NCBI GenBank assembly: GCA_937900975.1
Contig: CALCPC010000878.1
Location: forward strand, 1 to 10,586
DNA length: 10,586 nt
From: an uncultured Paracoccaceae bacterium
Lineage (GTDB): Bacteria; Pseudomonadota; Alphaproteobacteria; Rhodobacterales; Rhodobacteraceae
Reading direction: 5' to 3'
Shown: positions 1 through 10,586 of the stretch, one piece after another
Numbering within the stretch: position 1 is the first letter of the stretch
Layout: the number at the start of each line of letters is the position of its first letter
Translations under genes and position numbers: made by a program
The notes under the pieces: generated by a model
What the model was told of the DNA's origin: nothing
The model's input: the letters and a program-made list of their open reading frames with translations, nothing else
Databases searched by the model: none

Positions 1-1
1 C

Positions 2-133
2 GCCCCGCCCCGCCCGAGCAAGGGCCGGTTCGACCTGTTGCTGGCCACCTCCATGGAGGGGCGGGACAGCAATGGATGCGGCTGGGCGCTGTTTCGTGAC
101 ATAGAGATGATCAACGGACCCGTGAAGGCCTAG
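2..133 (+). CDS. C-terminal end of an unidentified protein (5' part outside window)
   Basis: An open frame enters from the left edge and ends at a TAG at 131-133, giving about 43 C-terminal residues that include the stretch GRFDLLLATSMEGRD and end in NGPVKA. I do not recognise the family from this tail. The stop lies only 4 bases before the GTG start of the glycosyltransferase gene, so the two are probably co-transcribed and perhaps translationally coupled. By context it could belong to a polysaccharide or cell-surface glycan locus, but that is inference from the neighbour alone. Confidence 0.55.
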   Translation, partial: APPRPSKGRFDLLLATSMEGRDSNGCGWALFRDIEMINGPVKA

Positions 134-137
134 CCCC

Positions 138-2747
138 GTGTCAGCCCGCATCGTGATCATCGTCCCAGTCTATCGGCACAGCGTTCTGGTGTCAGAGGCC
201 GTGGCAAGCGCCATAGGTCAGGAGGGCGGCCCAGACTACGGTATCGTGATCGTGAACGACGGCTGCCCAACGCCCGAAACGCGGGAGGTGGTCGACGGTT
301 GGGCGGCGCTTCACCCCGGTCGGGTGCGCGCGGTGCATCAGGCCAACCAGGGGCTTTCGGGCGCCCGCAACACGGGCATTCGGGTCGCGCTGGAAACCTG
401 GCCCGATCTTGAGGCGCTGTTTTTCCTGGATGCGGACAACCGGCTCGACCCCACGGCGATGCAGATCTTCGGCCACGCGCTTGACACCGACGCGCAGGCC
501 GATTGGTTTTTCCCGCATTTCGCCTTTTTCGGGATTGAGACCTTCGCCCATAACGGCGCCCCGTATTCGGTTGCGCGGATGTCGATGTCCAACCAGTGCG
601 AGGCCGGATCGCTGGTGCGCCGTCGCGTGATCGACGCCGGCATTCGCTTTGCCGAAGATATGCGCGCGGGCTACGAAGATTGGGACTTTTGGCTGCAAGC
701 CTCCGAAAAAGGATTCCGCGGGCGGCGGTTTCAGCAAACCTTCTTTCGCTACCGCAAGCGCCCCGAAAGCATGTTGTCGGGCAGCCATGCCGGCGACGCG
801 GCGCTGCGCGAGGCGGTGATGGCGCGCCATCGCTGGCTTTACGCACGGGGCGGGGTGGTCGATGCCGCGCTGGCGGAAGTGCCCTATATCCTGGCATTCG
901 AGGCTGAGACAGGGGCCCTGTCGATGCTGCGCGGCGCCGAGCTGAGGCCGGAGCCTGTGCCCGCCGATGACGTCGCCGCGATGATCTTCGCCGCCCACGC
1001 ACAGCGCGACCGCGTGCTGGTGCCACCCTTTGTCCTTCTGTTGCGCGACACCGCTCGGGGCCTGATCGCGGATCCAAAGCTTGGCCGCTCTGTCATTTGT
1101 CATCTTCAAGATGCGCTTTCGACAACAGAGCTTGCCGTTCTGCGCGTGCGTCAGGAGATGGAAGACAATAATTATTGGTTCCACACAACACGGCGTTGGG
1201 CGACCGATTGGATGCCGCAAGAGCCTGACCGCGACCCGCCGCGCATGATGGCGGCGTTCGCATCCGAGATCCGGGGCGGCGACGCGGTGATGATGAAAAC
1301 CCACCGCCTCATCGCCGCCGTGTCGCATTGGCGCTCGGACGAGATGCAGGTCGGTTTGGCGCGGGGCGCCAGCATCGCGACCGTCCACGCCAATCTGCCG
1401 GATCCCGTCCCGGAGGTGGAGCCTGAGGGGCTGATGTCCGGCTTTGGAAACCTTGCCGATGTGATGAGCAACAGCCGGTTCAGCACCCCGGGCCGCGCCG
1501 CCTTCAAAACCTGGCGCTGGCCGCCGCATATCACCGGCCCCACGGATATGCCCGCCGTTCTGTCGCGGGGCGCGTTGCACGGCGCGCCGCTGCTTTTGCC
1601 GGGCGCCAAAGACCGCCCCCAAATCGGTTTCGTGCTGCCGATCCTGAAATTCGGCGGTGTCGAAAAATGCGCCATCGCGTTGGCGCGCGCAGTGCGGGAT
1701 CTCGGCGCCGATTGTCATCTTTACGTTTACGGCAATGAGAACGCGGCCAGCACGCCGTGGCTTTTGGACCCGTTTGCCTCGGTCCATTTTGTCGGCAACC
1801 GCGCGTTGCGCGACTGGAACGGCCCGCGGTATCTCGGCACCAAAATGGCCTCTCGCCCCCCGGACGAGATCATGAACCGGATCTTGGGGCCGCTCAGCGG
1901 ATTGGACGCCGTCATCAACTCGGGCTGCGCCGCGATCCATCACGGGCTGGGTGCGTTGCGTCGCAAGGGCATCCGAACCGTCGCCTGGGAACATCTGATC
2001 GAAACCGGCGCCTATGGGCGCAGCTATGGCACACCCTATCTCGCGCTTGCGCATGAGGGGGGGTACGACCGGATCGCGACCTGCTCAAAGGCGCTGTCGG
2101 TCTGGATGCACGGCCAGGGCGTGCCGGAGGCCATGCTTTTGGCGTTGCCGATCGGACCTGGCTATCCGCTGTCGCCCGATGCCATCGGCACAGCACTGGC
2201 CGCGCGGCAGGGCGCGGCGGACGCGCCGGTTCTGCGCGTCGGTTTTCTCGGCCGGATGGACCGTCAAAAGGGGCTTGACCGGTTTTTGGAGATTGCAGCC
2301 GCGTCCGCCGATCTGCCGCTGTCTTTTTCGATCACCGGGAAATCCGTTCTCGATCAGGAGGATGACGCCTTTGTCGTCCCCCCCGACCTGCCGCTGTACC
2401 CGCCCGCCTATGACCTTGACGAATTGGCCGAAGCGTTTGCGCGGATCGATATCCTTTTGATGCCGTCCCGCGATGAAGGATTGCCGCTGACCATCATGGA
2501 GGCGCAACGGCTGGGCATCGTAACCGTCGTGTCCCGCGTCGGCGCGGTGGAGGAGGCGATTGTCGATGGTCAGACCGGTTTCCTGGTCGATCCCAATGCC
2601 GTGGTGGCGGAAACCGTGGCCGTGCTTCGCCGTCTGACGGAGGATCGCAACCTCCTCGCCGCCACGTCGACGGCCGCCGCGAACCGGGAGGATCAGTGGC
2701 GCCTGAACGCAGAGGCCCTGATGTCCGCCCTCGCGTTAGAGCGCTAA
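138..2747 (+). CDS. Bifunctional glycosyltransferase, GT2 domain fused to GT4 domain
   Basis: The 869-residue protein joins two glycosyltransferase folds. Residues about 4-235 are a GT-A, family 2 domain: IVIIVPVYR at 5-13, VNDGC at 39-43, a DXD-type metal/nucleotide-sugar motif D98-A-D100 and the acceptor-side EDWDFWL at 180-186. Residues about 495-865 are a GT-B, family 4 domain: GFVLPILKFGGVEK near 497-510, VGFLGRMDRQKGLDRF at 701-716 and an E-x7-E nucleotide-sugar motif E780 to E788 (EGLPLTIME), followed by GFLVDP. The 250-residue middle is not assigned. No signal peptide or membrane segment is evident, so it probably acts in the cytoplasm, adding sugars to a surface glycan. The GTG start is chosen because it begins directly at the GT2 strand and has AAGG about 9 bases upstream. 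Donor and acceptor cannot be told from sequence. Confidence 0.88.
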   Translation: MSARIVIIVPVYRHSVLVSEAVASAIGQEGGPDYGIVIVNDGCPTPETREVVDGWAALHPGRVRAVHQANQGLSGARNTGIRVALETWPDLEALFFLDADNRLDPTAMQIFGHALDTDAQADWFFPHFAFFGIETFAHNGAPYSVARMSMSNQCEAGSLVRRRVIDAGIRFAEDMRAGYEDWDFWLQASEKGFRGRRFQQTFFRYRKRPESMLSGSHAGDAALREAVMARHRWLYARGGVVDAALAEVPYILAFEAETGALSMLRGAELRPEPVPADDVAAMIFAAHAQRDRVLVPPFVLLLRDTARGLIADPKLGRSVICHLQDALSTTELAVLRVRQEMEDNNYWFHTTRRWATDWMPQEPDRDPPRMMAAFASEIRGGDAVMMKTHRLIAAVSHWRSDEMQVGLARGASIATVHANLPDPVPEVEPEGLMSGFGNLADVMSNSRFSTPGRAAFKTWRWPPHITGPTDMPAVLSRGALHGAPLLLPGAKDRPQIGFVLPILKFGGVEKCAIALARAVRDLGADCHLYVYGNENAASTPWLLDPFASVHFVGNRALRDWNGPRYLGTKMASRPPDEIMNRILGPLSGLDAVINSGCAAIHHGLGALRRKGIRTVAWEHLIETGAYGRSYGTPYLALAHEGGYDRIATCSKALSVWMHGQGVPEAMLLALPIGPGYPLSPDAIGTALAARQGAADAPVLRVGFLGRMDRQKGLDRFLEIAAASADLPLSFSITGKSVLDQEDDAFVVPPDLPLYPPAYDLDELAEAFARIDILLMPSRDEGLPLTIMEAQRLGIVTVVSRVGAVEEAIVDGQTGFLVDPNAVVAETVAVLRRLTEDRNLLAATSTAAANREDQWRLNAEALMSALALER

Positions 2748-3065
2748 GGCCCGGACAGAGCGCCTCCCAACGCCGTTTCGCTGCGCGCGGGGGATGGCGT
2801 AGTGCGGTGGACGTTTTGCCGAAAGTGCGGGCCATCAAGGCCAAAAAAACCCGCCAAAGCGTCACGCTTTTCGCGCGACGGGCGCCGCTTGGCCCCGTGC
2901 GACCGGGCCGCACTGGGGGCCCTGGTGTGGCGCGGAAGGGCGCGACGCCTTTAGCGTTTCGTGAAAAACCCGAACCACACACCTCCGCCTCAACTCAGAG
3001 ATTTCAGAGCGGTATGGGATGCCTGATGTCTCAGAAGTTGCACGAGACGCTGGAGACCAGGGCGC

Positions 3066-3330
3066 GACCCTTTGGCCATATTGCGAAATCCCGGCCCAGT
3101 GGCGACGTCTTGGACAATTCGAGACGCCCTGACCCGGTTGGGACGCCTTGGCGCGGTCGCGACGCCCTGGCTTGGTCGCGACGCCCTGGCTTGGTCGCGA
3201 CGCCTTGGACCGGTCGGGACGCCCTAGCCCAGTCGGGACGCCTTGGCCCGGTCGGGACGCCGTGGCCCGGTCGGGACGCTTTGGCCTGGTCGCGACACCA
3301 AAGGCCGGGTGGGACGGCTAAGAATTGGGG
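3066..3330. repeat. 19-bp tandem minisatellite, about 14 units with degenerate edges
   Basis: Units begin with GAC at exact 19-base intervals: 3123, 3142, 3161, 3180, 3199, 3218, 3237, 3256, 3275 and 3294, with a consensus close to GACGCCYTGGCCCGGTCGG. Units 3161 and 3180 are identical. Further, more diverged units keep the register on the left (3066, 3085, 3104), and an 18-base one follows at 3313. Junctions alternate between GTCGCGAC, a perfect palindrome, and GTCGGGAC. The period is not a multiple of three, so in any reading frame the peptide repeats only every 57 bases (19 codons). This argues for a non-coding minisatellite. Decay outward from a conserved centre suggests expansion by slippage or unequal exchange. 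Confidence 0.9.
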
Positions 3331-3561
3331 GACGCGCAGACCCATTTTTCCTTGGGGTGTGCCCAAAGGGTTTGCGCCAACAGCGAACAGGCGTCTGGTC
3401 GAAACGGGTCGGCCGGCAGGTGTCCGCGGGCGGAGTGTCGGCCAGGCGCAGCTCTGTCTAAGGGCCGAGGAATGTCCTGCGCATTGGTCGGCGCTGCGTT
3501 TTTTCACCAGAGATCTGGCACGACATACTGTCCCGATACCGGCTCAAGGCCCTTGGGCCAA

Positions 3562-3608
3562 CGCGCCGCGGTCCGGCGGCGCGCATCGCCAAGCGCGGGC
3601 GTCGCTTG
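3562..3608 (-). terminator. Two stem-loops just downstream of grpE, possible terminator or 3' end stabiliser
   Basis: Immediately beyond the grpE stop lie two perfect inverted repeats. The nearer has arms CAAGCG (3590-3595) and CGCTTG (3603-3608) around a 7-base loop. The farther has 8-bp arms CGCGCCGC (3562-3569) and GCGGCGCG (3576-3583) around a 6-base loop. Neither is followed by a T run on the minus strand, so a classical intrinsic terminator is not shown. They may support Rho-dependent ends or protect the 3' end. Confidence 0.35.
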
Positions 3609-3611
3609 ACG

Positions 3612-4217
3612 TTAGGCGACGTCGCTGTCGCCGGGGGGGACCACATCGCCGGCGGGGGTGGAGGATACCCCGACCTGCGCCGGGCGCAAAAGCCGGTCGC
3701 CGATCACGAACCCGGTGGTCATGACCTGGAAAATCGCGCCGGCCGGATGCTCGGGCACGGGCGCCTCGAACATTGCTTGGTGAAGCTTCGGGTCGAACCG
3801 ATCGCCCGGCGCCGGTTCGATCTTTTCGATCTTATGCTTGGTAAACGCCGCCAAAAGCTCCCGCTGGGTCAATTCCAGCCCCTCAACCAGTCCCGAGGCC
3901 TGCTCGCGCCGCGCCGCATCGATGGTCTCAAGCGCGCGCCCAAGATTGTCGTGAACGGACAAAAGATCGCGGGCGAGCTTAACGCCGCCGTAAAGCTCCG
4001 CATCCCGGCGGTCGCGTTCGGCCCGCTTGCGGATGTTCTCGGCCTCGGCAAGCGCTCGCAAGAGCCGGTCTTTCAATTCGTCCCGCTCTGCGCGCCGCGC
4101 GTCGAGTTCGATCTCATCGGCCGATGGATCATCGTCGAGAAGATCGGAAAGTGCTTCGGGATCGTCGAGAAAGAGGTCTTCGTCTTTGCTGTCCATGTCG
4201 TCTTTGTCCTCGGCCAT
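3612..4217 (-). CDS. grpE: GrpE, nucleotide exchange factor for DnaK
   Basis: This 201-residue protein matches the GrpE family in length and layout. GrpE is a cytoplasmic dimer that opens the nucleotide cleft of the Hsp70 chaperone DnaK, releasing ADP and so driving the refolding cycle. The first 40 residues are very acidic and probably disordered. Residues about 40-95 are charged and suit the long dimeric helix (DARRAERDELKDRLLRALAEAE). The C-terminal beta domain carries the family signature near residues 165-184 (VMTTGFVIGDRLLRPAQVGV). The gene lies 38 bases after hrcA on the same strand, the usual heat-shock pairing. The ATG start has only a weak purine stretch upstream (GGGGGCTGA). No dnaK or dnaJ lies in the window. 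Confidence 0.97.
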   Translation of the reverse strand: MAEDKDDMDSKDEDLFLDDPEALSDLLDDDPSADEIELDARRAERDELKDRLLRALAEAENIRKRAERDRRDAELYGGVKLARDLLSVHDNLGRALETIDAARREQASGLVEGLELTQRELLAAFTKHKIEKIEPAPGDRFDPKLHQAMFEAPVPEHPAGAIFQVMTTGFVIGDRLLRPAQVGVSSTPAGDVVPPGDSDVA

Positions 4218-4255
4218 AATCTTCAGCCCCCATCGCGTCGATGCCCGTCCGGCCC

Positions 4256-5392
4256 CTAGCCTGCGTTGCGGCCCGAGATCAGACGGCCGACCATCTGCGC
4301 GGTGAAATCGACGATCGGGACGACACGGCCGTAGTTCTGGCGGGTTGGCCCGATCACACCGATTGCCCCGATGATCCTGCGTTCGGCGTTCATATAAGGA
4401 GAAACACCCAAAGAGGAACCCGAAAGTGAAAAGAGTTTGTTCTCGGCCCCGATGAAGCCGCGCACGCCTTCGCCGGTCTCTGTCAGCTCCAACAGCTGGG
4501 CCAAATCGCGCTTGCGCTCCAGGTCGTCGAAAAGGCTTTTGACGCGCTCAAGATCCGCGCCGGCGCCGTCGTCAAGCAGGTTGGATCGCCCGCGCACGAT
4601 CAGGCGCGAGGGTTCATCCTCCGATTTATCGGCCCAGATCGCGATGCCGTCCTCAACCAGCCGGGCGGCCAGACCGTTCAACTCCTGGCGCCGCCGCTCA
4701 ATCTCGCGGCGGACGACGTCGGCAGCCTCGCTCAGCGTGCGCCCTTCGAGCACGGCGTTGAGAAAGTTCCCGGCCTCCCGCATGGCCGAGGGCGTCAGGC
4801 CCGGCGGCGGCGTGAAGAGGCGGTTTTCAACGGCGCCATCGGCTGTGACCAGCACCACCAGCGCGCGGTCAGGGGAGAGGCCGACAAACTCAAGATGACG
4901 GATCGGCGCCTCGGATTTTGGGGCGAGAACCAGGCTCGCCCCCTGTGTCAGGCCCGAGAGAAGCGCGCCGGCACGGTCCAGGGTTGCGGGCAGATCCGGC
5001 GTCGTCTCGTCGAGTGAGCGCTCGATCTCGCGCCGTTCGTCGGCCGAAATCTCCCCCATCTCCAAAAAGCCGTCCAGAAACAGCCGGAGGCCGCGCTGCG
5101 TGGGCACCCGCCCGGCCGAGATATGAGGGCTGTCGAGCAGGCCCAAATGCTCAAGATCCTGCATTGTGTTGCGCACGGTCGCGGCCGAGACCTGCTCGGA
5201 CAAAGACCGGGACAGCGTGCGAGAGCCCACAGGCTCCCCACTGTCGAGATAGGTTTCGACCAGCCGGCGAAAGACATCGCGGCTGCGGGCATCAAGGCTC
5301 GACAAACTGTCTTTGGCGTCTGACAAAAGCACTCCGTCTCTGGTTTTTCCTGATGTATGGCGTGGTGAGGGCGTGGTCAATTCGTCCCGCAT
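4256..5392 (-). CDS. hrcA: HrcA, heat-inducible transcription repressor
   Basis: HrcA represses chaperone operons by binding the CIRCE inverted repeat, with GroEL promoting its activity. The start used here gives 378 residues. The N-terminal winged-helix domain is clear (residues about 35-110): SRDVFRRLVETYLDSGEPVG, then SAATVRNTMQDLEHLGLLDS and SAGRVPTQRGLRLFLDG. The central GAF-like and insertion regions follow, and the C-terminus has GVIGPTRQNYGRVVPIVDF, typical of the family. The start is uncertain. The ATG at 5392 has no clear ribosome binding site. A GTG at 5431 would add 13 residues, and a GTG at 5332 behind GAGACGGA would give 358 residues, nearer the usual family length of about 350. 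It is the first gene of an hrcA-grpE operon. I found no CIRCE element in the window, so autoregulation through CIRCE is not shown here. Confidence 0.95.
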   Translation of the reverse strand: MRDELTTPSPRHTSGKTRDGVLLSDAKDSLSSLDARSRDVFRRLVETYLDSGEPVGSRTLSRSLSEQVSAATVRNTMQDLEHLGLLDSPHISAGRVPTQRGLRLFLDGFLEMGEISADERREIERSLDETTPDLPATLDRAGALLSGLTQGASLVLAPKSEAPIRHLEFVGLSPDRALVVLVTADGAVENRLFTPPPGLTPSAMREAGNFLNAVLEGRTLSEAADVVRREIERRRQELNGLAARLVEDGIAIWADKSEDEPSRLIVRGRSNLLDDGAGADLERVKSLFDDLERKRDLAQLLELTETGEGVRGFIGAENKLFSLSGSSLGVSPYMNAERRIIGAIGVIGPTRQNYGRVVPIVDFTAQMVGRLISGRNAG

Positions 5393-5431
5393 CACGGCGC
5401 CGTGGCCGCCGTGGTTTCGCGCTTGCGACAC

Positions 5432-5552
5432 AATGGGGCTCGCCTTTTAGCTGAAAATTAGCCATATCACCCCGATAGAAGGGCCAAGCGCGCCATCCAA
5501 GCTGCGCGGCAGGATCATCCGCCAAACCGGCGGCGCAACGTGCGGAGACGGC
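5432..5552. promoter_or_regulatory. Divergent promoter region between hrcA and btaA
   Basis: This short region must hold the promoters of both hrcA (leftward) and btaA (rightward). For hrcA the minus strand carries CTTGGA (5501-5496) and, 12 bases on, CCCTTCT (5483-5477). This resembles an RpoH-type heat-shock promoter (CTTGAA, CCCCATNT), although the spacing is slightly short. An AT-rich island at 5445-5468 contains a direct repeat TTAGC at 5447-5451 and 5458-5462, exactly 11 bases apart. For btaA a good ribosome binding site, GGAG at 5544-5547, lies 5 bases before the ATG. Only the ribosome site is confident. Confidence 0.35.
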
Positions 5553-6779
5553 ATGACCCAAACCGATATCATCACCGATCAGTTGCGCGCCGCAGTGCAG
5601 CAAAACCGGCTGACAAGCCGGACCGGCCTTTTGGAACGGGCCTTTGCGCAGCTGTTTCACGGCTTGGTCTATGCCCAGATTTGGGAAGATCCCGTGGCCG
5701 ACATGGGCGCGCTGGACATCCAGCCCAGCGACAACCTGGTGTGTATCGCGTCGTCGAGCTGCAATGTGATGTCCTATCTGACGGCGCGGCCAGCCTCGAT
5801 CACGGTTGTCGATCTTTCGCCGGCGCATGTCGCTTTGGGCCGGCTCAAGATCGCAGCAGCGCAGCATCTGCCGGATCACGAAAGCTTTTACGCATTTTTC
5901 GGCCGCGCCGATCTGCCGGAGAACGCGCTGCGCTACCGGACGTATATTGCCGATCACCTAGACAGCGAAAGCCGCGCTTATTGGGAGCAGCGGACGCTGC
6001 TGCGCCGCCGGATCACCTATTTCACGCGCGGGTTTCACCGCTTTGGCCTGCTTGGCCAGTTTATCGCCACGATGCACATCGTCTCGCGGATTGCGATGGT
6101 GGATTACCGACCGCTGTTGGCCGCCCGCTCGCTGCGCGAGCAGCAGCAGTTCTGGGAAGACCGGATCGCGCCGATGTTCGACACTTGGATCGTGCGGTTT
6201 GTCGCCCGCCGGCGTGCCTCACTCTTCGGCCTGGGGATCCCGCCGGCGCAGTATGACAAATTGGCAGCCGATGCCGGCGGCAACATTCTGCCGGTGCTGA
6301 AAGAACGGATGCGCAAGCTGGTCTGCGACTATCCGATCAAGGACAATTATTTTGCCTGGGCCGCGTTCAACCGTGGCTACGACCGGGCAGAGGATCGGTC
6401 CGTGCCGCCCTATCTTGAGGCGCGCCATTTCGAGACGGTGCGCGAAGAGGCGCGCAAAGTCATGATCCACAACATCTCACTGACCGAGATGCTGCGGCGC
6501 GAGCCTCAGGACAGCAAACAATGCTATCTGTTGCTCGACGCGCAGGATTGGATGACGGACGCGCAGTTGACCGACCTTTGGGCCGAAATCACCCGGACCG
6601 CGACGCCCGGCGCGCGGGTTTTGTTTCGCACCGGCGGCGGGCCCGACATTCTGCCCGGGCGCGTGGCGCCGGACATTCTGGATCGCTGGCGCTATGACGC
6701 GGCGGCGTCGGCCAAAGCGTTTGCCGAGGACCGGTCGGCCATCTATGGCGGGGTGCATCTATACCGGTTTGCGGGATGA
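5553..6779 (+). CDS. btaA: BtaA, S-adenosylmethionine:diacylglycerol 3-amino-3-carboxypropyltransferase
   Basis: The 408-residue protein matches BtaA (DUF3419 family), which transfers the 3-amino-3-carboxypropyl group of S-adenosylmethionine to diacylglycerol. This is the first step of betaine lipid (DGTS) synthesis at the cytoplasmic face of the membrane. Visible marks are LVYAQIWEDP at 38-47, the AdoMet-binding segment CIASSSCNVMSYLT at 64-77, VVDLSPAHVALGRLKIAA at 85-102, and FNRGYD at 272-277. There is no signal peptide. The length is typical of proteobacterial BtaA. The ATG has GGAG 5 bases upstream. It overlaps btaB by 4 bases (ATGA), the usual two-gene operon. In relatives the pair is induced by phosphate starvation so that betaine lipids replace phospholipids; no convincing Pho box is visible here. 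Confidence 0.92.
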   Translation: MTQTDIITDQLRAAVQQNRLTSRTGLLERAFAQLFHGLVYAQIWEDPVADMGALDIQPSDNLVCIASSSCNVMSYLTARPASITVVDLSPAHVALGRLKIAAAQHLPDHESFYAFFGRADLPENALRYRTYIADHLDSESRAYWEQRTLLRRRITYFTRGFHRFGLLGQFIATMHIVSRIAMVDYRPLLAARSLREQQQFWEDRIAPMFDTWIVRFVARRRASLFGLGIPPAQYDKLAADAGGNILPVLKERMRKLVCDYPIKDNYFAWAAFNRGYDRAEDRSVPPYLEARHFETVREEARKVMIHNISLTEMLRREPQDSKQCYLLLDAQDWMTDAQLTDLWAEITRTATPGARVLFRTGGGPDILPGRVAPDILDRWRYDAAASAKAFAEDRSAIYGGVHLYRFAG

Positions 6780-7417
6780 GCGAAACCAGCGCCCACGCGG
6801 CGCTGATGAATTCGACCTATCGCCATCAGCGTCGAATTTACGATCTGACGCGCAAATACTATCTTTTCGGCCGCGATCACCTGATCCGAGAGCTTGCCCC
6901 CCCGCCGGGCGGCGCGGTGTTGGAGGTCGCCTGCGGCACCGGGCGCAACCTTGCCAAGATCGCGCGGCGCTACCCCGATGCGCGGCTTTTTGGGCTGGAT
7001 ATCTCAAGCGAGATGTTGGAAAGCGCGGCGGCGACGCTGAACCGTCAGGCGCGGCTGGCGGAGGCGGATGCCACCGCCTTTGACGGCGCGGCGCTGTTCG
7101 AAGAGGCGGCGTTTCCCTGCATTTTTATCAGCTACGGCGTGTCGATGATCCCGGATTGGCGCGCGGCGTTAGACTGTGCGGCGGCGCATTTGGCCCCTGG
7201 CGGGGCGCTCCATGTCGTCGATTTCGGCGATCAGGGGGCCTGGCCCGGCTGGTTTGGCCGCGGGCTCCGCTCCTGGCTGGCCCGGTTTCACGTCACCCCA
7301 CGCCCGGACCTTGGCGCCGAGATGGCAAATCTGGTTGAGCGGTATGGCGGGTCGGTCGAGGAGGTTCAGGTCTTCGGGCGTTATGCCGTCTATGTCGTCT
7401 TTCGGCGGGCAGGGTAG
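6776..7417 (+). CDS. btaB: BtaB, S-adenosylmethionine-dependent N-methyltransferase of betaine lipid synthesis
   Basis: The 213-residue protein is a class I methyltransferase. Motif I is VLEVACGTGRNLAKIA at 48-63, the acidic AdoMet-binding strand is LFGLDISSEML at 71-81, and the post-methylation strand HLAPGGALHVVDFGD spans 138-152. The N-terminus YRHQRRIYDLTRKYYLFGRD is typical of BtaB. It should methylate diacylglyceryl-homoserine, made by BtaA, three times to give DGTS. The assignment as BtaB, rather than a generic methyltransferase, rests on the N-terminal pattern and on the ATGA overlap with btaA. The overlap suggests translational coupling. No intrinsic terminator is evident after the stop. 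Confidence 0.9.
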   Translation: MSETSAHAALMNSTYRHQRRIYDLTRKYYLFGRDHLIRELAPPPGGAVLEVACGTGRNLAKIARRYPDARLFGLDISSEMLESAAATLNRQARLAEADATAFDGAALFEEAAFPCIFISYGVSMIPDWRAALDCAAAHLAPGGALHVVDFGDQGAWPGWFGRGLRSWLARFHVTPRPDLGAEMANLVERYGGSVEEVQVFGRYAVYVVFRRAG

Positions 7418-7761
7418 GGGACCAGCGCGCCGTTCCGGTCAGCGCGGGTCGAACGCGCCTGCGCGGCGGCACCTAGGGTGGCGCGCTCGGCAAAGCCATC
7501 GCCCGTTCGCACCATCATCGGTATCGCCCGTCTTGGACGCAATCCCCGCGCTGCGTGGCCGGGCACCGTGAATCGGCAAGACCCTAACCGGTGGATCGGC
7601 TTTCGCGTTAAAAGTGAGATCCTCCGGCCTTGCGCAACCCGGGCCGCGCGCGGCTGAAGACTGACGCCAAAACAGGCATTTCGCGCCTGCCCCCGCCGCC
7701 CGCGATGCTGCAGAGCAGCAGACGAATTGCTGCGGCGCCGGGGTTCCCCCACACTCCGCCC
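7418..7761. promoter_or_regulatory. btaB-nasT gap, presumed nasT promoter and leader
   Basis: This 344-base gap has no supported gene. It should contain the nasTS promoter. A GG-N10-GC pattern at 7593-7606 (within TGGATCGGCTTTCGCG, 7592-7607) partly matches the sigma-54 consensus, without other support. Close to nasT three short complementary segments, TGCTGC (7706-7711), GCAGCA (7715-7720) and TGCTGC (7728-7733), can form two alternative hairpins that share the middle arm. Start codons upstream of 7762 in the nasT frame would add a proline- and arginine-rich stretch with no receiver-domain character. Confidence 0.3.
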
Positions 7762-8346
7762 ATGAAAGACCGGCTGTCCATCATTGTCGTTGAACCGGAC
7801 CGCGACCGCGCGCTCCTCATCGTGGACAGCCTTGCGGCGGCGGGGGACAACGACATCCACGTTATCTCGGAAATCTCCAGCCTTGCCCGCCGGATCTCCG
7901 AACGCGCGCCGGATGTCGTGATCGTCGATCTGACCAGCCCCACGCGCGACATGATTGAGGAGTTGACGATCGCCAGCGCGCCGATGGACCGGCCTGTTGC
8001 GATTTTTGTCGACCAAAGCGACGACAGCCTGACCAACGCCGCGATCGAGGCGGGCGTATCGGCCTATGTGGTGGATGATTTGCGCCCCGAAAAGCTGAAA
8101 CCGGTGATGGCCGCGGCGATCACCCGGTTCAACATGTTCCGCCGGATGCGCGACGAGCTGGCCGAAACCAAGCGTGCGTTGGAGGAGCGCAAGGTGATCG
8201 ACCGCGCCAAGGGGCTGTTAATGAAGGCCCGCGGCATTAGCGAGGATGAGGCCTATGCGATCCTGCGCAAGGCCGCGATGGACCAGGGCCGCAAGATCCC
8301 CGAGGTCGCCTCGGCCCTTGTCACCGCGGCCGAGCTTTTGACATGA
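7762..8346 (+). CDS. nasT: NasT, ANTAR-domain RNA-binding antiterminator of nitrate assimilation
   Basis: The 194-residue protein has a receiver-like domain (about 5-122) and a C-terminal ANTAR domain (about 138-193: ERKVIDRAKGLLMKARGIS, then EDEAYAILRKAAMDQGRKIP). ANTAR proteins bind paired hexaloop hairpins in leader RNA and prevent termination. In the NasTS system NasT is released from NasS when nitrate or nitrite is present and switches on the assimilation genes. E11, D13 and D56 fit the acidic pocket, but the usual receiver lysine is absent: that strand reads AYVVDDLRPEKL. This agrees with NasT being controlled by NasS binding rather than by a kinase. The ATG at 7762 is chosen because the receiver strand LSIIVVEPD starts right after it, although no Shine-Dalgarno is evident. 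nasS follows with an ATGA overlap, and a fitting RNA target lies upstream of nrtA (9630-9742). Confidence 0.93.
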   Translation: MKDRLSIIVVEPDRDRALLIVDSLAAAGDNDIHVISEISSLARRISERAPDVVIVDLTSPTRDMIEELTIASAPMDRPVAIFVDQSDDSLTNAAIEAGVSAYVVDDLRPEKLKPVMAAAITRFNMFRRMRDELAETKRALEERKVIDRAKGLLMKARGISEDEAYAILRKAAMDQGRKIPEVASALVTAAELLT

Positions 8347-9521
8347 GTGCGACACGGCTGTCCATCGCGTTTGTCCCGCTTGTCGATGCGGCCCCCCTGA
8401 TCGTCGCAGAGGAGATGGGCTTCGCGCGGGAGGAGGGGTTGGCGTTCGACCTGGTCCGCGCACCGTCCTGGTCTTCTTTGCGCGATATGCTGGCCTTTGG
8501 CCGGGTGGAGGCGGCGCAAATGCTGTCGCCCGTGCCGGTCGCTATGGCGATGGGGATCGGGGGCGTCGCAAGCCCGATCTCGGCCTTGATGGTTTTGTCG
8601 CTAAACGGCACGGTGGTCGGCGTGAGCCGCGCGCTGGAGGAGCGGCTGCGCGGCGTCGGTCATGATTTCGGCTTTTCCGATGCGGCCGCGGCGGGGCGCG
8701 CCTTGGTCGATGCGGCTGAAAGGCGGCTGCGCATCGGTGTGCCTTTCCCGTTCTCGATGCACGCCGAGCTTCTTTACTATTGGCTTTCTGCGTCGGGGTT
8801 GCCGGCGCCGCAGGGCGTGGAAATCCGCACCGTTCCCCCGCCCCTGATGGCCGATGCCCTGGCGGAGCGCGAGATCGATGCCTTCTGCGTGGGGGAGCCC
8901 TGGGGCACCAAATCGGTGGAGACCGGGGCTGGCGCGCTGCTCCTGCCCGGTTGCGCGATTTGGACTTGCGCGCCCGAAAAGGTTCTGTCCGTGCGCACCA
9001 CTTGGGCAGAGGCAGAGCCGGATCTGACCGCGCGAATGATGCGCGCCGTGTGGAAAGCCTGTCGCTGGCTTTCGGCCAGCGGCGCGGAAACCACGGCTGC
9101 AGAACTGCTGTCCCGCCGCGCCTATCTCGACCTTCAGCCAGAGATGATCGACCGCGCGCTCACCGGTCATTTGGTGATCAACGCCCGGGGCGAGACACGC
9201 GATTGTCCGGGGTTTATGGAATTCTTCGCCGGCGCCGCGACATTTCCCTGGAAAAGCCAAGCCGCCTGGATCGCCGCGCAGATGGGCGCGCGGCTGGGGC
9301 TTGAGAAAACGCCGGCAATGGACCAGGCGCGCGGCGTCTTCCGCACCGATCTTTACCGCCGCCATCTTGGCGAGGCGGGCGCGACGCTGCCCGGTGCGTC
9401 GGAAAAGATCGAAGGCGGAATCGACCGGGAGATGACCGTCGCATCCCAGAACGGCCACCTTATCCTGGCCGAGAACCGGTTCTTCGATGGCAGGGTTTTT
9501 GACCCCGATCTACGCTTTTGA
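8343..9521 (+). CDS. nasS: NasS, cytoplasmic nitrate/nitrite sensor that restrains NasT
   Basis: The 392-residue protein belongs to the NrtA/CmpA-like ligand-binding family but has no signal peptide. It opens directly with the first strand, LSIAFVPLVDAAPLIVAEEMG at 6-26, so it should stay in the cytoplasm. Shared family marks are FPFSMHAELLYYWL at 135-148, TVPPPLMADALAEREIDAF at 163-181 and CVGEPWG at 182-188, each with a counterpart in the nrtA product. NasS is known to bind NasT and release it on sensing nitrate or nitrite. The overlap with nasT (ATG at 8343, TGA at 8344-8346) suggests coupled, near-stoichiometric synthesis, as expected for a sensor and its target. The lack of an export signal and the nasT partner separate it from a transport component. 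Confidence 0.9.
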   Translation: MSATRLSIAFVPLVDAAPLIVAEEMGFAREEGLAFDLVRAPSWSSLRDMLAFGRVEAAQMLSPVPVAMAMGIGGVASPISALMVLSLNGTVVGVSRALEERLRGVGHDFGFSDAAAAGRALVDAAERRLRIGVPFPFSMHAELLYYWLSASGLPAPQGVEIRTVPPPLMADALAEREIDAFCVGEPWGTKSVETGAGALLLPGCAIWTCAPEKVLSVRTTWAEAEPDLTARMMRAVWKACRWLSASGAETTAAELLSRRAYLDLQPEMIDRALTGHLVINARGETRDCPGFMEFFAGAATFPWKSQAAWIAAQMGARLGLEKTPAMDQARGVFRTDLYRRHLGEAGATLPGASEKIEGGIDREMTVASQNGHLILAENRFFDGRVFDPDLRF

Positions 9522-9589
9522 CCAAAATTTTGGCATCTTTCGCCGCATTTGCGGCGCCGCAAACGCAAAATTTTCGCCGCTTTGCAGCG
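9522..9589. repeat. Palindrome and imperfect duplicated AAAATTTT/hairpin module after nasS
   Basis: Directly after the nasS stop is a perfect 12-base palindrome, CCAAAATTTTGG (9522-9533). A hairpin with 6-bp arms CGCCGC (9541-9546) and GCGGCG (9551-9556) around ATTT follows. A second AAAATTTT (9567-9574) is followed by CGCCGCTTTGCAGCG (9575-9589), a near-copy of the first hairpin sequence. The module looks like an imperfect duplication. It lies where the promoter or an operator of the nrtA transcript should be, and could also mark the end of nasTS. No role is proven. Confidence 0.5.
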
Positions 9590-9629
9590 AAACCTTGCAC
9601 TCCTCATCCTGACCCGTAGACCTCAAAGC

Positions 9630-9690
9630 ATGAGAGCAACGGGGCTCTCGTCCACTACCCACGACAGGGCAATCCGAGCAAAGCTGCTCG
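9630..9690 (+). promoter_or_regulatory. Two-hairpin ANTAR (NasT) recognition motif in the nrtA leader
   Basis: Hairpin P1 has arms GAGAGC (9632-9637) and GCTCTC (9644-9649), extended by A9630-T9651 and a T-G wobble, around the six-base loop AACGGG (9638-9643). Hairpin P2 has arms CGAGC (9675-9679) and GCTCG (9686-9690) around the six-base loop AAAGCT (9680-9685). Both loops have A at position 1 and G at position 4, the pattern known for ANTAR targets, and they are joined by a 23-base linker. P2 shares bases 9680-9690 with the terminator that follows, so P2 and the terminator cannot form together. NasT, encoded about 1.3 kb upstream, is the obvious ligand. The structure is seen directly in the sequence; binding is inferred. 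Confidence 0.85.
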
Positions 9691-9742
9691 ACCTCGGCCT
9701 CGCGAAAGCGCGGCACAGGTCAGGCAGCTTTTTTTGTTTTTT
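9680..9742 (+). terminator. Intrinsic terminator (attenuator) in the nrtA leader
   Basis: A long imperfect hairpin has outer arms AAAGCTGC (9680-9687) and GCAGCTTT (9724-9731). Next come a T-G wobble and a C-A mismatch, then inner arms GACCT (9690-9694) and AGGTC (9717-9721). The top helix is GCC-T-CGC / GCG-C-GGC (9697-9714) closed by a GAAA tetraloop at 9704-9707. It ends in seven T, one G and six T (9729-9742). It lies 40 bases before the nrtA start, inside the leader rather than after a gene, which marks it as a regulated attenuator. Confidence 0.9.
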
Positions 9743-9782
9743 GCGCCGCGAAAATGCGGCCAGAGCCAGGGACCAGAACCCG

Positions 9783-10586
9783 ATGAAACACCTACTTGCC
9801 AGCGCGGCGCTAACCGCGCTTTTCGCCAGCGCCGCATCGGCGGAGATGCTGGAGCTTGAGAAAGACGAACTGACCTTCGGCTTCATCAAGCTGACCGACA
9901 TGGCCACGCTCGCCGTGGCCTATGAGAACGGATACTTCCTTGACGAGGGGCTTTTCGTCACGTTGGAGGCGCAGGCCAATTGGAAGGTGCTGCTGGATGG
10001 CGTGATCGACGGTCTGCTTGACGGCGCGCATATGCTGGCGGGTCAGCCGCTGGCCGCGACAATCGGCTTCGGGACCGAGGCCCATATCATCACGCCGTTC
10101 TCGATGGATCTGAACGGCAACGGCATCACGGTGTCGAACGAGGTGTGGGATCTGATGCGCCCGCACATCCCCTCCATGGACGATGGCCGTCCGCAACACC
10201 CGATCAGCGCAAAGGCCCTGGCCCCGGTGGTCGAGCAGTTCCGTGATGAGGGTAAGGCCTTCAACATGGGTATGGTCTTCCCGGTTTCGACCCATAATTA
10301 CGAGCTGCGCTACTGGCTGGCCGCTGGCGGTCTGCACCCGGGCTTTTACAGCCCCGAAAACATCTCGGGCCAGATCGCGGCCGATGTGTTCCTGTCGGTG
10401 ACGCCGCCGCCGCAGATGCCCGCGACGCTGGAGGCCGGCACGATCTATGGATATTGCGTGGGCGAGCCTTGGAACCAGCAGGCCGTGTTCAAGGGCATCG
10501 GCGTGCCGGTCATCACCGACTACCAGCTGTGGAAGCACAACCCGGAAAAGGTCTTCGGCATCACCAACGCGTTCGCCGAGCAGTAC
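9783..10586 (+). CDS. nrtA: NrtA-type periplasmic nitrate-binding protein of an ABC transporter (3' end outside window)
   Basis: The first 268 codons are visible and the frame runs off the right edge. The product is the substrate-binding component that captures nitrate (or nitrite) in the periplasm for an NrtBC-type ABC permease and ATPase. Residues 1-20 form a Sec signal peptide ([20 protein letters not shown], cleavage after ASA). It has neither a twin-arginine motif nor a lipobox cysteine, unlike cyanobacterial lipoprotein NrtA. The mature part has [20 protein letters not shown] at 30-49, [18 protein letters not shown] at 166-183, [19 protein letters not shown] at 206-224 and CVGEPWN at 225-231, shared with nasS. 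A GGGA lies about 11 bases before the ATG. Expression should depend on the NasT-controlled attenuator 40 bases upstream. The related CmpA/TauA/SsuA-type binders are less likely given the context. Confidence 0.92.

Follow-up and report, generated by a model that had tools for sequence, protein, structure and literature searches.

The locus described here raises two questions: whether the leader of a candidate nitrate-transport gene is a NasT-type antitermination switch, and what the stretch between its two hairpins contributes. The DNA analysed, called the window throughout, is a stretch of 10,586 nt from an uncultured Paracoccaceae bacterium (assembly GCA_937900975.1, contig CALCPC010000878.1, positions 1-10,586, forward strand; GTDB lineage Bacteria; Pseudomonadota; Alphaproteobacteria; Rhodobacterales; Rhodobacteraceae). 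The assembly is 3.9 Mb long and 78% complete. In Paracoccus denitrificans, NasS and NasT dissociate on nitrate or nitrite and the nasA leader is bound by NasT (PMC3795266); two hairpins of this leader have been named HI and HII, and when HI is mutated on the chromosome, expression is lost and the cells no longer grow on nitrate (PMC5424462). The dual-hairpin mechanism has been described for EutV of Enterococcus faecalis (PMC3369931), and a crystal-based model has one dimer passing from a recruitment to an antitermination hairpin (PMC8934654).

Four elements follow each other on the plus strand of the window: nasT (7762..8346), nasS (8343..9521), whose start overlaps the nasT stop by 4 nt, the leader, and nrtA (9783..10586). 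NasT is an ANTAR antiterminator of 194 aa, encoded next to nasS, with an ANTAR domain above the Pfam cut-off (2.6e-22) and a REC-like domain below it (25.5 bits, cut-off 30.2). It has been aligned to the solved relatives Rv1626, EutV and NasR. Once the nine RNA contacts of EutV (PMC8934654) are mapped on the alignment, applying a numbering offset of two, seven are identical in NasT (R142, K143, K149, E160, Y164, R168, M172), while K147 is replaced by R and N173 by D. The only ANTAR gene found in the 78% complete assembly is nasT itself. NasS, a candidate cytoplasmic nitrate/nitrite sensor of 392 aa, has the NMT1_2 nitrate-binding fold (2e-61), resembles the binding domains of NrtC, CmpC and NrtA, and starts with MSATRLSIAFVPL, where no obvious signal peptide is seen by eye. 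By analogy with P. denitrificans (PMC3795266), it would bind nitrate or nitrite and release NasT. The nrtA product, a candidate periplasmic nitrate-binding protein (NMT1_2, 1.4e-78), matches the solved NrtA chain 2g29 at 103 bits and the CmpA-type chain 2i48 at 55 bits. Among NCBIfam models, NasT and NasS have no match above cut-off and NrtA has none at all; a weak match of NasS to sulfonate-binding proteins lies under the cut-off. The three labels, homology-based, fit the protein evidence. The preliminary description had placed NasT and NasS directly upstream of the leader, and domain and solved-relative matches agree with it. It had also spoken of a 2.8-kb unit; regulator, sensor, RNA target and controlled gene do lie together, but nrtA is truncated, its 3' end being beyond the window and only its first 268 codons inside.

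Other features were recorded in the remaining part of the window. A protein of 869 aa (138-2747) has a glycosyltransferase domain of family 2 at its N-terminus and one of group 1 at its C-terminus. A tandem repeat with a GC-rich unit of 19 bp (3119-3316; 9.4 copies, with a 57-bp higher period) sits between the GrpE/HrcA genes and a glycosyltransferase gene. At 5553-7417, the gene of a DUF3419 protein (8.7e-104) overlaps a methyltransferase gene; we take the two to be a BtaA-BtaB betaine-lipid pair.

The leader holds, on the plus strand, hairpin P1 (9630-9651; 8 bp, ATGAGAGC-AACGGG-GCTCTCGT, loop at 9638-9643), a linker of 23 nt (9652-9674) and the antiterminator hairpin P2 (9675-9690; 5 bp, CGAGC-AAAGCT-GCTCG, loop at 9680-9685). 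Both hairpins are read from the sequence and recovered by folding. As the preliminary description had stated, both loops are of six bases and carry A at position 1 and G at position 4 (A1/G4). The intrinsic terminator (9680-9742, plus strand) begins within P2: its 5' arm, starting at the P2 loop at 9680 (AAAGCTGCT), pairs with 9723-9731 (GGCAGCTTT), and the tail reads U7-G-U6 (9729-9742; T7 at 9729-9735, G at 9736, T6 at 9737-9742). P2 and the terminator are mutually exclusive, as had been proposed, the common stretch being 9680-9688. The published definition of ANTAR targets (PMC3369931) asks for two stems, each of 3 bp or more, whose six-base loops both carry A1 and G4, and for an ANTAR protein encoded in the genome. 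All this is found here, with stems of 8 and 5 bp, loops AACGGG and AAAGCT, and nasT in the genome; P2 moreover overlaps an intrinsic terminator (9680-9688 with 9723-9731), as about 30% of the ANTAR-target matches in ANTAR genomes do (PMC3369931).

The window was scanned for a composite of two A1/G4 hexaloop hairpins (stems of 5 bp or more, loop starts 15-66 nt apart) whose second loop opens a terminator helix of 8 pairs or more. The plus strand has a single instance, at 9680/9729; the minus strand has none, and 200 dinucleotide-shuffled versions of the plus strand gave none either. The minimum free energy structure of 9600-9760 includes the terminator (z -3.52; none of 200 shuffles is as low). 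When 9628-9745 is folded, the terminator fold reaches -52.0 kcal/mol, and the fold with P1 and P2 forced -43.2. P2 is favoured in transcripts ending from 9691 to 9725 and is lost at 9730. On these energies, and on the loss of P2 between 9725 and 9730, transcription should terminate by default, and P2 would have to be stabilised in order to last. Rfam gave no match in the window at E<=1.

Upstream of P1, a weak promoter-like pair, TTGCAG-N17-CATCCT (9582..9610, plus strand), was found by pattern matching as a putative element; a separate consensus scan did not report it. Of 126 leaders, 43 have the pattern TTGNNN-N15-18-YANNNT, against a mean of 17.7 and a maximum of 27 in 50 letter shuffles. 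Ahead of P1, 68 of the 126 carry a palindrome, CYGC-N3-5-GCRG, at a median of 81 nt before the P1 loop; 100 letter shuffles give a mean of 3.9 and a maximum of 10. The window has two copies (9543-9554 and 9577-9587). The palindrome looks like a transcription factor site, and may resemble the PhaR motif.

Relatives were collected in two rounds. NasT-like matches were present at E<=0.001 in 154 of 198 family genomes and at E<=1e-20 in 82, own genome included; those weaker than E<=1e-20 are weak response-regulator matches. The first set consists of 79 loci (77 regions and two shorter loci, the fragments G122 and G021 being left out), in three of which nasS runs off the contig. The order nasT-nasS-nrtA is kept in 70 of the 76 relatives with a complete nasS, the third gene being at least 67% identical to the window nrtA; six loci of other arrangement and the three with a cut nasS were omitted from the first leader set. 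The first alignment comprises 65 of 68 selected leaders, window included (L049, L082 and L098 omitted), and the linker test 67 of 71 leaders, as P1 was not found in L083, L084, L096 and L078. Because leaders were picked mostly by the A..G.. loop of P2, only P1 loop counts are unselected. A held-out search found at least 157 of 394 family genomes positive at E<=1e-50, and 73 loci, none fetched before, were taken from the matches listed. These gave 61 leaders automatically; several of the 12 missed loci show a leader by eye, and four choices wrong by eye (L159, L168, L194, L220) were retained among the 61. The held-out alignment, made by P2, includes 69 leaders of the 73 loci. All shuffle controls preserve composition, not relatedness.

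Outside the family, leaders were recovered in part from 40 loci (L118-L157), which are used as examples and are uncounted. In some of these distant genomes, further A1/G4 hairpins overlapped by terminators lie close to nasT (in oriented coordinates, L145 at 7430, L157 at 2690/7804, L156 at 3100/6597), so that each may hold several NasT targets. In one first-set locus within the family (L059, 2769-4710) about 1.9 kb separates nasS from nrtA, and the dual hairpin is found directly before nrtA; no T-run terminator was found there from the P2 loop.

G4 of the P1 loop is invariant in both sets (65/65 and 69/69), and A1 is present in 64/65 and 64/69 leaders, so that the loops are conserved among orthologous leaders as a NasT target should have them according to the preliminary description. 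The P1 stem covaries in the first alignment (score 0.591; shuffled 0.189, slid 0.145 or less), and so does the whole structure in the held-out one (0.399; shuffled 0.182, slid 0.131 or less). P2 is nearly invariant in first-set relatives, where it is also the element used for picking leaders; this is expected, because its sequence serves two folds. Of 71 leaders, the window among them, 63 have a helix of 6 or more pairs between the P2 loop and the arm before the T-run, a count made without shuffle control; 5 pairs or none are formed in the other 8. The P2 loop and the terminator 3' arm change together: AAAGCT/GGCAGCTTT in the window, AATGCT/GGCAGCATT, AAGGCC/GGCCTT and AGCGCC/GGCGCT elsewhere. 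The compensatory changes looked for are seen in P1 and between the P2 loop and the terminator. By eye, the terminator loops of L040, L045, L047 and other relatives hold a CTCCTCCC-like, Shine-Dalgarno-complementary motif, absent from the terminator loop of the window.

The search with a covariance model of ANTAR-target type, proposed earlier as a check, was made with two models of our own, and both match the leader. R2, restricted to the pairs of P1 and P2 and built on the 69 held-out leaders without the window, gives the window leader 53.5 bits (E 4.1e-11); the next best of 150 scored candidates in its own 3.9-Mb assembly reaches 20.0 bits. R1, which has the window among its members, gives 50.8 bits. 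Against 385 class-level genomes, with stricter filters, R1 has 6 matches at E<=0.01, two of which are the own genome and one family genome; as class-level matches are few, R1 is family-specific.

The linker had been singled out as worth comparing with other ANTAR targets, and the comparison repaid the effort. Linkers of eut leaders measure 5-12 nt, and a linker of 14 nt or 20 extra nt spoils antitermination (PMC3369931, PMC8934654); the window linker, of 23 nt, is beyond the eut range and within the 2-25 nt curated for actinobacterial ANTAR RNAs (PMC8164766). In 67 family leaders, the distance from P1 loop end to P2 loop start has a median of 43 nt (range 32-57; window 36), and the linker a median of 33 nt when P1 is counted as at most 6 bp. 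Most of these linkers can fold. Counting the window, 64/67 contain a hairpin with three or more G-C pairs, against a mean of 31.3 and a maximum of 43 in 200 shuffles. A hairpin of 4 bp or longer occurs in 56/67 (shuffles: mean 22.4, maximum 33), and in 45/67 the loop of the best hairpin is centred on a G (mean 5.3, maximum 13). Held-out leaders behave similarly: 54/61 (shuffles: mean 28.2, maximum 40), 49/61 (mean 20.2, maximum 31) and 36/61 (mean 5.7, maximum 12), respectively. Frequent forms of this candidate third hairpin, denominated Pm, are TCCC-NNNGAYN-GGGA and close variants, and distant family members (L100, L101, L103, L106) retain the stem in other letters. Since the linker holds a candidate third hairpin in most relatives examined, the two-hairpin description is probably incomplete.

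In the window, Pm (9658-9669, plus strand) is CCC-ACGACA-GGG, 6 nt after P1 (9652-9657) and 5 nt before P2 (9670-9674); with Pm counted, both gaps fall within the eut range. The hairpin has 3 bp and a G at loop position 3, and is not significant alone (p 0.27). Of its nearest relatives, L159 has the same CCC-ACGACA-GGG, and L158 has CCC-ATCACA-GGG, with no G in the loop. For these reasons, a spacer or a decaying site is as likely here as a binding site. Single linkers fold better than their shuffles at p<=0.05 in 13/67 cases (mean z -0.97). RNAalifold predicts P1 and P2, not Pm, on the first alignment, and column covariation of Pm is small, partly because loop length varies (first set 0.156, with 0.097 when shuffled and 0.168 when slid by -1; held-out 0.190, with 0.132 when shuffled and 0.177 when slid).

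Leaders lacking Pm are of different kinds. The held-out L219 has a linker of 13 nt and nrtA following, which would fit a need for one of the two, a short linker or a hairpin; this is not a strict rule, because the linkers without a qualifying hairpin in L221 and L228 are long. A linker of about 8-9 nt, also without Pm, was observed in L180. No nrtA-like match was found downstream of nasT-nasS and the short-linker dual hairpin in L180 / L296, so L180 may be a decayed leader left after transporter loss. In the class relatives L139-L142, inspected by eye, 3-4 nt separate P1 and P2, leaving no room for Pm, and an extra hairpin seems to be upstream of P1 rather than between P1 and P2. Judging by these four loci, three hairpins with a variable middle one are not a universal rule.

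Rows having no gene at least 60% identical to the window nrtA after nasS were assigned to a sister arrangement. Three tandem A1/G4 hexaloops are found in 28 of 54 such rows (50 shuffles: mean 0.1, maximum 1), or in 26 of 52 when two repeated genomes (L234 = FL068, L261 = FL069) are subtracted, and in 9 of 100 nrtA-type rows (shuffle maximum 1), a class that also has such repeated pairs. Given the three full hexaloops of the sister arrangement, the preferred reading is that Pm is a third ANTAR-like station, its A1 having been mostly lost in the nrtA type. Rhodobacter capsulatus SP108 (L282) shares with the window nasT, nasS, a leader and, after it, an NrtA/NasS-like binding-protein gene (33% to the window nrtA), and differs by three A1/G4 hexaloops, AACGGC, AAGGAC and AACGAC. 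The P. denitrificans system likewise has nasT-nasS, a hairpin leader and nitrate genes, but controls nasA, a transporter unlike NrtA, whereas the window leader precedes nrtA (PMC3795266, PMC5424462). In strain DSM 413 (L253) three tandem hexaloops, AACGGC, AATGAT and GACGAT, start 155, 130 and 107 nt before the ATG; unlike in the window, the last lacks A1 and, by eye, no U-run terminator overlaps it. HI (137 bp) and HII (91 bp) of the published work map ambiguously onto the three loops. EutV targets of E. faecalis have the same two A1/G4 hexaloops and a P2 exclusive with the terminator, but linkers of 5-12 nt, against 23 in the window and a family median of 33, mostly with a hairpin inside. 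The actinobacterial RNAs have dual hexaloop stems and curated linkers of 2-25 nt; few lie upstream of a terminator, and the part of that report consulted does not mention a third hairpin (PMC8164766). A third hairpin of NasT leaders was likewise not mentioned in the literature searched, mostly the main text of open-access papers.

The linker might instead be a plain spacer, its CCC...GGG kept for a sequence-specific protein contact or for an alternative pairing, and Pm not a working hairpin. The RNAalifold result, the modest column covariation, the 3 bp and p 0.27 of the window Pm, and L139-L142, where by eye 3-4 nt between P1 and P2 leave no room for it, all speak for this. It is nonetheless rather unlikely, as linker hairpins (64/67 and 54/61) exceed the shuffle maxima of 43 and 40, divergent linkers (L100, L101, L103, L106) keep the stem in other letters, 28/54 sister rows have three A1/G4 hexaloops where shuffles reach 1, and L219, devoid of Pm, has a linker of 13 nt with nrtA following. 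Doubt may also be cast on the whole switch, if the terminator were an ordinary attenuator or a processing site outside NasT control and the hairpins were relics. NasT binding to the window leader is indeed a prediction, and the terminator alone could account for the sequence conservation of P2. P1, however, plays no part in the terminator and yet covaries, with G4 invariant; moreover NasT binds the P. denitrificans nasA leader, and the HI mutant fails on nitrate (PMC3795266, PMC5424462), which makes this explanation highly improbable.

The switch could finally answer another anion, nitrite or a related ligand, and drive a different member of the NrtA/CmpA/SsuA transporter group. With the NrtA-like protein, bicarbonate CmpC chains and nitrate-named chains reach similar scores (134.9 and 137.0 or 129.7 bits), as they do with the NasS-like protein (157.1 and 158.6 or 153.7 bits), and the weak sulfonate-binding match of NasS, below cut-off, points the same way. 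Single binding proteins rank otherwise, NrtA scoring above the bicarbonate protein 2i48 with the nrtA product (103 vs 55 bits) and with the NasS-like protein (126.5 vs 109.9). In L056, the genes after the nrtA-type gene encode a permease, a double ATPase and a flavoprotein whose domains are those of the N-terminal part of a nitrite reductase, a label that is our interpretation. A different anion is on this account improbable.

We conclude that the leader is very probably a NasT-dependent antitermination switch for a nitrate uptake operon, usually with Pm in the family. The switch belongs to the NasT antitermination already known from P. denitrificans. Hairpins, their overlap with the terminator, P1 covariation, synteny, and a linker hairpin in most relatives are observed; NasT binding and read-through are proposed from the P. 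denitrificans work (PMC3795266, PMC5424462) and from the conserved RNA-contact residues, and nitrate as the signal and any role of Pm are likewise putative. The switch may be pictured as follows. In the absence of nitrate NasS would hold NasT, as in P. denitrificans, and the polymerase would make P1, then P2. Once the RNA extends past about 9730, the stabler terminator would capture the P2 loop together with the 3' arm, and transcription would stop. In the presence of nitrate, freed NasT would bind the G4-bearing hairpin loops and keep P2 folded, and the polymerase would continue into nrtA. Pm, lying between P1 and P2, would keep adjacent hairpins at short spacings and, where its loop retains the central G, may itself be a NasT site; in the window it is reduced to a 3-bp form.

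The third hairpin would be the novel part, which the comparisons suggest strongly at the family level and weakly in the window. Unless the linker is folded, NasT leaders of the family break the published close-spacing rule, and Pm would explain how they comply. As a tentative view, which we hold to be possible rather than probable, Rhodobacteraceae NasT leaders may be three-hairpin targets, in which NasT follows the polymerase by moving from P1 to Pm and on to P2, never exceeding the short ANTAR spacing; lineages such as that of the window would be secondarily reducing Pm. If a third hairpin is indeed conserved, searches for ANTAR targets would have to be defined differently, and the hand-over model would become testable. 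Three tandem hexaloops are also present in the leaders of R. capsulatus and P. denitrificans, species with genetics available.
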